64,000 nucleotides of DNA from Alloascoidea africana. Lineage: Eukaryota > Ascomycota > Alloascoideomycetes > Alloascoideales > Alloascoideaceae. The notes beneath the pieces were generated by a model, which saw nothing but the letters and a program-made list of their open reading frames with translations, had not been told where the DNA came from and made no database searches. Both the position numbers and the translations under genes were made by a program. Positions 27,667-63,575 of this stretch are shown piece after piece. Positions within the stretch are counted from its first letter, which is position 1. Each line of letters starts with the position of its first letter. The stretch covers positions 1 to 64,000 of the forward strand of contig JAKTTT010000071.1 of the NCBI GenBank assembly GCA_030581615.1. The letters run 5' to 3'.

Positions 27667-30600
27667 CTAAGGATTTCTATCTAAGTGATCTGTAAATATT
27701 CTGGGTGCAATATTCATTGCCATCAACTCTTGAAACAGCAATTTCGCAGCATAAGGAAGGTGTATCTGGTATAGTTTGGTTTTATTTTTGCAAGCTCTGC
27801 ATTCAAACTGGTTTTTTTTCAAATTCGCAATGACACATACCAAGCCACAAACACCACAAACGTGAAGACGAAAGGCATCTGAGGAATCCATGAGTCGCTC
27901 TTTCAGAAATGATGCTGCGCCATGTGCAATCATACAATCACGCTCCATCTCACCAAATCGAAGCCCACCATCTCGAGATCTTCCCTCTACAGGTTGTCTG
28001 GTTAAAATTTGGACTGGTCCCCTAGCCCTGGCATGTATTTTGTCGTCAACCATGTGTCTTAGACGTTGATAGTAGGTAGGACCGAAAAACACTTGGACCA
28101 TTAGTTTCTTTCCTGTGTGTCCGTTAAACATAACCTCAAATCCTCTGGATTGATATCCATGATTGCGTAGTAGGTTTGAAATTGACTCCACTGTGACATC
28201 AGTAAACGGAGTGGCGTCTCCTTCTAAACCAGCCAGGGCCGACACTTTACTGAGGAGACACTCAATCAAATGTGCAACTGTCATACGTGATGGAATAGCA
28301 TGGGGGTTGATGATAATGTCAGGCACAATTCCTTCTGCTGTGAAAGGCATATCCTCATCCCTATAGGTTATCCCGATAGTCCCCTTTTGGCCATGCCGCG
28401 AAGCAAATTTATCACCAATCTGTGGTATTTTGGTTGTCCGCATACGGATTTTTACAAGTTTGAGACCTTCTTGATTGATGGTCAAAAGTACTTGATCTAT
28501 TATCCCACTCTCTGTACTCCTTAAAGCAGTTGAAGCGTCTCTCTTGGTGTGAAATTTGGTTCGTTGGCCAAGTTCTGTACTATCTGGAGAAATTGGAACC
28601 GTTTTACCTATTAATATGTCATCTCCTGAAACACGGACTCCAGGTGCGATCAAACCATCATCGTCCAATTTTTCATATGTTCCATGTTTAAGCCGTATTG
28701 TATTGTGAAACGTTGGTTTTTCAAAGTTTTCTAGAACAGTCATACCAACCCTTCGCTCTTGGTCCATATACGTTCTGAAGAATAGACTTCTAAACAAACC
28801 TCGGTCTATACTGCTTTGATTCATTATGACCGAGTCCTCTTGGTTGTAACCACTATAGCACGCAACAGCTACAACGGCGTTCTGGCCAGCAGGTAGCTCT
28901 CTGAATTTTAAAAACTCCATTGATCTTGTCGTAGTCAATGGCTTTTGGGGATAGTATAGAATGTTTGCCATTGTATCCATTCTATGACTATAATTTGTCA
29001 GGAAAACGCCCATGGCTTGCTTTCCCATGGCGGATTGGTACGTATTACGGGGCGACTGATTGTGATCAGGAAATGGGATAATACTGGCAGCAATTCCAAG
29101 AATCATACTGGGATGGATTTCGCAATGTGTCCAGGTGTGGTGGGTATTAGGATTATATTTTTGCTTGATTCGTTTCGCGGAATTTATTTGTTCTTCTTCC
29201 TCAGCCTCCTCAACGAGACCAAATTCAGAGGATTCCAAATCTTCTTGCGACATTGCAATCATAATTGTTTCTTCCTCTTCTGCATCAATGTACTCTACAA
29301 TCCCATCGGAGACCAAATCGTTCCATCCATAACGTTTCTCACAATATCCATACTCGCTTTGAATTATTTGGCGAATGTGTTTTTTTTGCAATTTTAGTTC
29401 ACCTTTCCTTGCACTATTTTTGTCATTGTCAACTATAAACAGTGGTCTGTATATACGACCAGCATCCGTAAATATTTTGAGCTCTTTTTCTCGAATATTG
29501 CTGATTATGCTGATTTCAGCACTAATGTCTCCTTTACGTCTCAAGGAACGCATCGTTTCAACCAGAACAGAAGGCGATCTATGAATACCTAGCCAAACAC
29601 CGTTAACAAATATTTTAGTTGCATCTGGTGTTGCGTGAGGTACAAAGTCTTCAAGAGATTCCATTCCCCATTCTTCAAGGAAATAGGAAATCGGTTCAGA
29701 TGGACTCCCAACTGAAATGCATGCCATAAGTGATAAATTTTTGACCAAACCACAGGCCTGTCCTTCAGGTGTTTCTGCGGGGCAAACCAACCCCCAATGG
29801 GTGTTGTGTAACTGACGAGGTTTAGCAATCTTGCCATCGTGGCCGATTGACGTGTTTGTTCTTCGTAAATGTGACAATGTGGAGGAGTAAGTGTATCTGT
29901 TCAAAACTTGGGAGACTCCTGCCCTCGAAGTCATTGCTTTCTTCTGCTCCCCCCAATTTCCAGTTGCGAGTGAATATTTTAACCCATTTGTTATTGTTGA
30001 AGGCTTCATGGCCAAAGTTAAGGTGAATTCTTTACTTTGCTCAACACATTTTTGCATGTTTCTAAGAATATCTTTGGTTAGTTTTTTGAAAAGAATACGG
30101 AAAAGAGTTGCGAGTAATGGACCAGCCAAATCCAGTCTTTTTCGCCCTAAATGATCACGATCATCTTGCTCTTTTCTACCAAGAGCACAAAGCAAGAGTT
30201 TGTGTGTCATGTATCCCAAGAAAAACGCTTTTCTAGACTCATATCCTTCCTTCTGTGAGATATTCGGCAAAAGCTCTTTTTGCAAAATGTCCCTTGCGTA
30301 TTGAATACGCCTGTCTCGTGGGGTATTGAGGGCACTTCCACGACGACCAATATAGTCTAAAGCAACTTCTCGATCCTGTATAACGAATGCCTCTTCTATA
30401 CATGGCTTTAACATTTCGAGCATCTGCCAGTCATTCGCTTCATAGCAGATATGCTCGAGAATATCGCCATCAGGAACGATTCCAAGAGCTCTGAAAAGAA
30501 TGAGCAAAGGGATATCATCTCTAATGTAAGGTATGGTCACTTTTAGAGTTCGCCCATTGACTTGTCCATTTCGACCATACAGTTTGATTTGCATACTAGA

Positions 30601-61551: not shown

Positions 61552-63575
61552 CTACTGCTCAAGAGCACCCAGAAAAGCAGTGGCCCTTGCCAGTCTATTT
61601 GCCATCTCCAACCCAGCAACACCAGAGGAATCTGGCAGATGGACCAGCTCCAGCTTGCCCAGTCCCTTCCACGAGTAATGCAGATTCAAATCGTAGAGCA
61701 TGACCAGACAAAGAATGAGGACATCGGTATCTTCAAAGTCCCTATCGAGCCGATGTAGTGTATCGCAAAGTAACAGTAAATCAACTGCCTCCTTGGAATT
61801 GCACACGACACGATATTGGGATATTGGTGGTGGTTTGTGGGCTTCGGCAGTTAACAGTTCAAGCGCTGTCTTAATTGCGCCCAAGGCGATCCTCGTTATT
61901 GATTGATTATTGGTGAATGGGACGCTGGAGGAAACGTTTCTTAAGTCGTTTTCTCCAAAGTAAATAGCATAAGCCCCTACGCCGTCATCTCTAGTACATA
62001 TCTCAACGTACACTGACAGTGTAGAGCTATCTGAGGTATCCTCTAAAAAGTTTGGAATTTTGCTCTCAAAGTGTGTTTGGTAATCATTTGTCTTGACACT
62101 TTTTTCTATTTCTTCATTTTCTTGCTGAGTATCCTGCTTTGTGTTTCCATTAACGTCTGTTGCGTCGTCTGTGACTGCTTCAGACTGTGTTTCGCTCATC
62201 CAAGGCTCAAATGTAACTATCTCATCGTCGTCATCTTCAAAATTGTAAGTTTCTTCTTCATCTTCTTTCGGCTTTTCTTTTTCTTCTGTATTTGCTTCGC
62301 TCTCCAGGTTTCCATTAGAATTTGGCAATTCTGAGTGACCAGACCCAGCATCACCATTTGGAGTTGTGCTATCTCTATCGCTCCATCCGTTAGAATCAAT
62401 GTGGTTAGTTGTATCTTCAAAATCATATTTTCGCCGTCTTGTTCGAGGTGACCACTCCTCTGCTTCCAAAATTCTCTTTCTCAGCATAGATATTACTGCT
62501 TGTTTTCTGGGCGAAGCAGAAGAAACCGAAACCGGGTCCTGATCTTCTTGAAATGTCCTGGATGGCGCGTATTTCTCTTGTTTAGGATACTTCCATGACC
62601 ACCCCGTTCCCTTATCCTCCTCCTTTGCAGCCGAAAAAATTGCAGATCCTTTACGAGAATAGTCCAGCGCTTCTTTATAGGTATCGAATCTCTTCATTTG
62701 TGCTTTTGGATATCCATCAGTTGAAGCCCTGGCTTCAGAAGCATACACAAACACACCCTTCTCGCGCCCTAAGTCTCCTGTTAGTGATGTGTATAGCCCA
62801 CATCTGTTTTCCAGTGGTAATGCTTACCAACGGCGACGCCATAATAGCTTCCTCTCTCCTTGAAAGATCGAAGGCTGTTTGGACCAGAATTCTCTCCCTT
62901 CCACACATAGCTCTGGGTTTCCTGGTATGGTGGTCGATTTTTAATCTGACCAGCATTCTCGCCAGTCAAAACAAAACTCTGGGCTTCCTTGTACGTTTCG
63001 AATTTTTTCCACCTTGCTTTTGGAAAGCCAGTAATTTGGGCTATAGCTTCGTAATGGTTGGAGTACACGCCAGGTTGTCTCCCTATCCCATGCGAGGAAC
63101 AAACGCGTCAGCCTCCATCAATTTTCAATCGTGAGAGCTCATTTCTTACCAACTTGAACACCATAGAAATAACAGGCCTTTGCATATCGTGGGTGAGCTG
63201 GCCTGGAACCATTTGTATCATCGCTGGTTTGTGATGTTGGCGATGAAAAGTCCGGGTTCTTGACTTCCGGACTAGAATTGCCGTTGACAAAGATATTGGC
63301 TTCTTCCTCGGTGTCGAACCGTTTCATAACCGCCTTTGGAAATCCTCGAGTCTGGTCCTGGCACTCGTTTAGACTCTTGTAGACGCCGGGTCGCCGTCCT
63401 AAAACGGATTGTTAGGAGGTGACGAAACAGAAAGGGCACAACAATTAAGCACCACAAGCAGAGAATGCCAAATCAATCATGACTTTTAGATAGTAAAGTT
63501 AAAAGTAACTAGCGGCTTGCCTTTTTGGACGGCATAGAATGCTACGGGACCTGGACATGGAGAATTATCACTCAT
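61552..63575 (-). CDS. RNase H1-like protein: three hybrid-binding domains, degenerate RNase H
   Basis: Predicted 591 residues from exons 63521-63575, 63150-63398, 62828-63082 and 61552-62768; introns of 122, 67 and 59 nt. Three hybrid-binding domains (about residues 12-57, 94-140 and 179-225) each show the family pattern FYxVxxG-R-x-PGVY...GFPKA...K(R/K)F-T-x-EA. Each is cut by a phase-1 intron in the same Gly codon (19, 102, 187). The first intron is GC-AG (GCAAGC donor). After an acidic linker, residues about 438-591 resemble the RNase H fold (VYVEICTRDDG, PFTNNQSITRIALGAIKTAL, VVCNSKEAVDLL, LVHLPDSSGVAGLEMANRLA). The DEDD positions read E442, I477, N510 and N577, so catalysis is unlikely. 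It may bind RNA:DNA hybrids or dsRNA without cutting. Whether a catalytic paralogue exists elsewhere is unknown. Confidence 0.88.

Follow-up and report, generated by a model that had tools for sequence, protein, structure and literature searches.

A protein that joins three tandem hybrid-binding domains (HBDs) to a diverged RNase H-like domain raises two questions: whether it can still cut RNA, and what its HBDs now bind. These questions are posed by a gene of Alloascoidea africana located in a 64-kb stretch of contig C71 (the window). The first-pass annotation had described the product as an RNase H1-like protein that appears to have lost all four catalytic residues but kept three HBDs, and had proposed that it reads R-loops or competes for them. 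The gene and its main parts are as follows, in window coordinates.

61552-63575, minus strand: RNase H1-like HBD gene of Alloascoidea africana; 4 exons, 1776 nt, 591 codons plus stop
63521..63575, minus strand: exon 1, 55 nt; start codon and first part of HBD1, followed by a GC-AG intron
63150..63398, minus strand: exon 2, 249 nt, both ends in phase 1; remaining HBD1, linker, start of HBD2
62828..63082, minus strand: exon 3, 255 nt, both ends in phase 1; remaining HBD2, linker, start of HBD3
61552..62768, minus strand: exon 4; remaining HBD3, acidic linker, RNase H-like domain, stop
62026..62607, minus strand: linker, residues 241-434; 47 D+E versus 22 K+R, pI 4.3, one basic cluster (RTRRRK)
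61555..62025, minus strand: RNase H-like domain, residues 435-591; pI 5.0, catalytic site E/A/N/N

The placement of the gene in the first-pass annotation (63575-61552, minus strand) was correct, and the model has four exons (55, 249, 255 and 1217 nt) that encode 591 amino acids with no internal stop. Intron 1 (window positions about 63398-63520) has GC-AG boundaries, and introns 2 and 3 have GT-AG boundaries. The acidic linker is 194 residues long. Directly upstream of the gene, on the same strand, are two tandem LicD-family genes:

C71:66568-68670, minus strand: farther LicD-family gene (Pfam LicD, E 1e-26)
C71:63647-65965, minus strand: nearer LicD-family gene (Pfam LicD, E 2e-30)

The stop codon of the nearer one lies 68 bp from the ATG of the HBD gene, and a kinesin gene is found downstream on the plus strand. 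In this neighbourhood, we noticed no tie of the LicD genes or the kinesin gene to the HBD gene. The sole Rfam match above the gathering score in the 64-kb window is a tRNA gene at positions 260-351.

Sequence comparison identifies the C-terminal domain as a strongly diverged homologue of RNase H. BLASTP against the two RNases H1 of the same genome gave 28% identity to the one on contig C44 (E=7e-16) and 23% to the one on contig C17 (E=4e-9), where both E-values refer to single comparisons. In a genome-wide search with the domain, the C44 gene was recovered at E=6.2e-9 and the C17 gene was not. The alignment with C44 contains 44 identities, and the maximum among 150 shuffled copies was 36. In addition, hhalign supports the homology at 97%. 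The RNase H-like character of the domain, as originally annotated, is borne out by these comparisons. On the other hand, Pfam RNase_H gave no match on this domain up to E 10, and a profile built from 39 bacterial RNases HI matched it at E 0.048, versus <=1e-19 for C17, C44 and human. A single-sequence search of the PDB returned no RNase H match and two hits at chance level. Relatives of the domain or of its exon were not confirmed in the genome contigs or in viral contigs, and none were found in plasmids.

Structure prediction depended on the alignment that was supplied. With the single sequence of residues 404-591, AlphaFold2 obtained no fold (pLDDT 39). With 39 bacterial relatives, it obtained the RNase H order of strands and helices (pLDDT 82, pTM 0.77); these relatives are true RNases H, and the model is not independent of their alignment. 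At E<=0.001, Foldseek matched this model to 302 PDB chains. Every one of the 50 matches listed is a structure of RNase H or of reverse transcriptase/RNase H, and human RNase H1 (8swc) is among them, with TM 0.63/0.66 and rmsd 5.1.

The positions of the catalytic residues were located by several alignments, that is, with C44 and C17, with 39 bacterial sequences, and with C44, C17 and human, together with BLASTP. These assignments rest on sequence alignments and not on a superposition of the metal site.

62002..62004, minus strand: E442, opposite the first catalytic Asp
61885..61887, minus strand: A481, opposite the catalytic Glu
61798..61800, minus strand: N510, opposite the second Asp (the human chains, titled D210N mutant, have Asn here)
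61597..61599, minus strand: N577, opposite the fourth catalytic residue (third Asp)

All four DEDD identities are changed in these alignments (D>E442, E>A481, D>N510, D>N577). The first change replaces an acid with an acid, so that one carboxylate of four is left. Accordingly, the claim that all four residues were lost holds in the sense that no identity is kept, with N510 and N577 as originally assigned, but E442 is still acidic. The human chains in the alignment, which are titled D210N mutant, themselves carry Asn at the N510 position. The lost catalytic Glu had been placed at I477, and this assignment was rejected: the four alignment and BLASTP comparisons give A481, and I477 faces the Asn/Thr of the T-N-N motif. 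In known RNases H, the catalytic Glu lies at a usual depth in its helix. Since the model helix starts at residue 475, residue 481, and not 477, lies at that depth. A missed frameshift or intron was also considered as the cause of the substitutions and rejected because the in-frame codons were read directly and four separate sites are changed.

Other functional parts of the domain are altered as well. The conserved GH-x-G loop reads DSSG with S567 opposite the His, in agreement with its annotated loss. In the substrate handle (W..GW..GW), the two Trp columns common to C44, C17 and human are occupied by Cys and His, followed by a 7-residue gap. C44, C17 and human share 41 identical columns, and the domain retains 17 of these. 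The pI of the domain is 5.0, and those of its two paralogues with DEDD are 7.0 and 9.2. Judging from these residues, we hold it highly probable that the protein is dead as a nuclease; with E/A/N/N in the metal site, it very probably cannot cut RNA, in line with the loss of cleavage originally proposed.

The rest of the genome contains enzymes that could do this work. Pfam PF00075 matches only C44:154480-154977 and C17:224803-225324, whose proteins each carry the DEDD motifs and one HBD with Trp, and an RNase_HII match is found at C9:150739-151341. The search for a second RNase H1 with DEDD thus yielded two, and with the RNase_HII match they imply that removal of hybrids does not depend on the gene studied here. 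The HBD profile, PF01693, matches two further places, both on contig C6:

C6:278500-287500 locus, at about 1.3-3.1 kb and 3.5-5.5 kb: tandem pair of HBD-only genes, with at least two readable HBDs per gene

When half-HBDs are left out, the Trp is absent from all four readable HBDs of this pair. No RNase H domain was detected in the 9-kb locus (best E 2.3). The C6 HBDs share their intron position with those of the studied gene, and are 23-39% identical to the human HBD versus 41-52% for the latter. The dN/dS of the gene pair is 0.67, with an interval (0.38-1.34, 103 codons) that includes 1. The pair adjoins a gene with an N-terminal ubiquitin domain (Pfam ubiquitin), which we take to be DDI1-like.

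Some other gene families of the genome were noted in passing. Two RPB2-type genes, which are 82.8% identical over 969 amino acids, are located at window positions 27973-29088 (minus strand) and at C11:59895-61010, and two other Rpb2-family genes are 38-39% and 28-40% identical to this pair. A second version of the second-largest subunit of RNA polymerase II is unusual in yeast. Besides eight strong Cpn60/TCP1 matches, there are two weaker full-length ones (C24:171807-173321 and C43:140439-141950), which are possibly two mitochondrial Hsp60-type genes.

We now turn to the HBDs. PF01693 matches the protein in three stretches (E 1.2e-42, 144.3 bits versus a cut-off of 21), each of which is above the cut-off individually (48.8, 49.0 and 30.2 bits for HBD1, HBD2 and HBD3, the last being the weakest). 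Below, positions are named after the human residues W43 and F58.

63286..63539, minus strand: HBD1, residues 13-56, split by intron 1; L28 at the W43 position, M43 at the F58 position
62970..63168, minus strand: HBD2, residues 96-139, split by intron 2; H111 at the W43 position, W126 at the F58 position
62656..62846, minus strand: HBD3, residues 181-224, split by intron 3; A196 at the W43 position, M211 at the F58 position

The intron lies at an identical position in all three HBDs (phase 1, within the Gly preceding R35), and exons 2 and 3, both symmetric, have nearly the same length; the three HBDs would thus most simply have arisen by exon duplication. In a tree of 11 HBDs (44 columns), HBD2 and HBD3 cluster with 86% bootstrap support, and the remaining nodes are weak. 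Capture of the HBD by a transposon, as reported for Pleurotus helitrons (PMC4289320), was also considered, but no test result points to it.

Identity to the human HBD is 52%, 50% and 41% for HBD1, HBD2 and HBD3, respectively, and 52% and 50% for the HBDs of C44 and C17. Nevertheless, the Trp of the DNA groove (human W43) is found in none of the three HBDs, versus 22 of 22 comparison HBDs, which comprise those of human, yeast, C44 and C17 and 18 bacterial ones (every row found), the last being one phylum draw and not independent. The second groove aromatic (human F58) is aromatic only in HBD2 (W126), with M43 and M211 in the others. Human, yeast, C44 and C17 keep both the Trp and an aromatic at 58, as do all 18 bacterial HBDs. 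The RNase H profile matches all 18 bacterial proteins, and with narrow motif patterns the third catalytic Asp was detected in 3/18 of them and the fourth in 16/18. On the strength of the profile match, we refer to them as RNase H domain proteins, without asserting that every one is active.

Other features of the HBD are retained. Y29 and R35 are kept in 3/3 HBDs, the RNA-side loop (G-F/Y-P-K) reads RGFPK, TGFPK and DGYPK, the basic pair K59/K60 reads KR, KK and KR, and the domains are basic (pI 9.0-9.5). W43 and F58 are reported to contact the DNA, and the main chain of R52 and A55, supported by R35, the 2'-OH of the RNA (PMC9603397). Together with these published roles, the loss of the Trp and the retention of R35, the loop and the basic pair suggest that the DNA side was lost and the RNA side kept in all three HBDs. 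Therefore, the originally proposed retention of three HBDs stands for the HBD fold, as recognized by PF01693, but does not extend to the Trp, which is gone in 3/3, or to the F58 aromatic, which is gone in 2/3.

A further question is whether the gene has been maintained. We simulated neutral drift of the C44 domain (400 runs, substitutions only), in which the probability that 167 codons contain no stop was 0.005 at <=50% amino acid identity and 0.0025 at <=33%; an open frame is thus unlikely under neutral drift. Between the HBDs of the protein, pS and pN are 0.85 and 0.32 (HBD1 and HBD2) and 0.79 and 0.35 (HBD2 and HBD3), and no ratio of these is given because synonymous change is saturated. 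The corresponding values are 0.78 and 0.50 for the RNase H-like domain and C44, and 0.82 and 0.44 for the domains of C44 and C17. The codon score is highest in the coding frame for the HBDs, the linker and the RNase H-like part. Conservation of the hydrophobic core (34/39 versus 12/52) was dropped as evidence of constraint because 9/150 realigned shuffles reach it. These results speak for a gene that was long kept by selection, and do not indicate for which function.

Several explanations can be weighed against this evidence. That the protein has remained a nuclease in which E442 and other acids hold the metals is hardly credible: the carboxylate of E442 remains and Asp and Glu are frequent nearby, but the three other positions carry A, N and N, the His of the GH-x-G loop is Ser, and the two paralogues with DEDD make such an activity unneeded. 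Decay of a duplicate towards a pseudogene, with no selected function, would explain why the RNase H-like domain diverged past Pfam detection, and would be compatible with the dN/dS interval of the C6 HBD genes, which spans 1, and with the 68 bp between the upstream stop and the ATG, which leave little room for a promoter. We nevertheless consider it improbable, given 591 codons without a stop, intron ends that are all usable, the neutral simulation, the in-frame codon scores, and a pN well under the saturated pS among the HBDs of the protein itself. It is also improbable, in our view, that the HBDs are now modules for protein interaction, with binding of nucleic acid secondary or lost. Human RNase H1 is reported to bind P32 via its HBD (PMC3750045), HBDs without W43 and without a detected RNase H domain exist on C6, and the long acidic linker fits such a role; however, the HBDs are basic and have kept the basic pair and the RNA-side loop.

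The originally proposed role, in which three HBDs bind hybrids and shield them from the two DEDD RNases H1 without cleavage, deserves closer attention. The HBDs score above the Pfam cut-off, retain Y29, R35 and the K59/K60-type basic residues, and in HBD2 have an aromatic at position 58, and the tandem arrangement would raise avidity, as reported for RHINO, an engineered R-loop sensor with three HBDs (PMC10639055). The difficulty lies in the groove, where the residues kept in 22/22 comparison HBDs are replaced in 3/3 (W43) and 2/3 (F58). In RHINO, the W43A mutation is reported to abolish R-loop foci, leaving diffuse staining and diffusion-limited recovery (PMC10639055). Moreover, the RNase H-like domain is acidic and has lost the Trp residues of the handle. 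The proposal is weakened by the loss of the Trp and by the W43A result, and we regard it as rather unlikely, although a weak or altered reader of hybrids would fit the retained basic residues, Y29, R35 and W126.

A multivalent binder of the RNA side fits better than such an R-loop reader. According to this explanation, a duplicate of RNase H1 would have become a pseudoenzyme, with its metal-binding residues gone and two DEDD RNases H1 remaining in the genome. The sequence shows that the conserved Trp residues of the handle, with some of the segment around them, are lost or deleted and that the domain is acidic. Each of the three tandem HBDs has kept its overall sequence and RNA-side features and given up the Trp of the DNA groove, and RNA:DNA hybrids would then no longer be discriminated well. 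The protein would then be a multivalent binder of RNA-containing duplexes, with dsRNA or structured RNA first, in which the dead RNase H domain and the acidic linker would serve as docking parts for proteins, and which would regulate or scaffold rather than cleave. Preferences of HBDs are known to differ: yeast RNase H1 is reported to have an HBD with tighter binding to dsRNA than to hybrid (PMC7657459), and human RNase H1 one that prefers hybrid over dsRNA at least 25-fold (PMC8677849). Against the RNA-side reading, W126 of HBD2, Y29 and the K59/K60-type basic residues are kept, and hybrid binding may persist. For the whole statement, a pseudoenzyme that binds duplexes multivalently from the RNA side and acts as a scaffold or regulator, we put the chance somewhat short of even; that the protein is an RNA-binding regulator is more likely than that it is an enzyme.

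Compared with known systems, the protein shares with eukaryotic RNase H1 the domain order, the intron phase inside the HBD and a homologous C-terminal domain. It differs in having three HBDs without W43, an E/A/N/N site and a 194-residue acidic linker, and in lacking the His loop and the handle Trp residues. To our knowledge, Prp8 has no HBD. Its RNase H-like domain (PMC3985635) belongs to an architecture that appears unrelated to that of the studied protein. The RNase H1 of S. cerevisiae carries two HBDs (PMC7657459). RHINO resembles the protein in its three tandem HBDs and in the absence of cleavage (here predicted), but it keeps and needs W43 (PMC10639055). N510 lies at the position mutated in the inactive reagent RNase H1 D210N (PMC8677849), whereas in the studied protein evolution also changed the other three catalytic positions and the handle. 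The C6 pair is alike in the loss of W43 (4/4 readable) and in intron position, and unlike in that no RNase H domain was detected in its locus and its HBDs are more diverged. In a literature search, which covered mostly titles and abstracts, no paper was found whose topic is a naturally occurring RNase H1 paralogue that has HBDs and is catalytically dead.

We therefore describe the protein as an RNase H1 paralogue turned pseudoenzyme, which stands out in that catalysis and the grip on DNA were lost in parallel. What is newly noted here is that the DNA-groove Trp was lost in all three HBDs alongside catalysis. RNase H1 with an HBD is reported to be usually single-copy, for which functional redundancy was the proposed reason (PMC1950709). 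This genome has three HBD-bearing RNase H1-type genes, of which the third seems to have escaped redundancy by giving up catalysis and the grip of its HBDs on DNA. It is possible, but doubtful, that RNase H1 here gave rise to a multivalent reader of RNA duplexes that forms, with the Trp-less HBD-only pair on C6, a small family of repurposed HBDs. In practice, HBD-like matches should not be read as R-loop binding before the Trp is checked. If the predicted switch in preference from hybrid to RNA duplex is true, the protein would provide a natural test of the HBD residues that set hybrid specificity, and would join Prp8 as a second example of a dead RNase H fold that was retained for another job.
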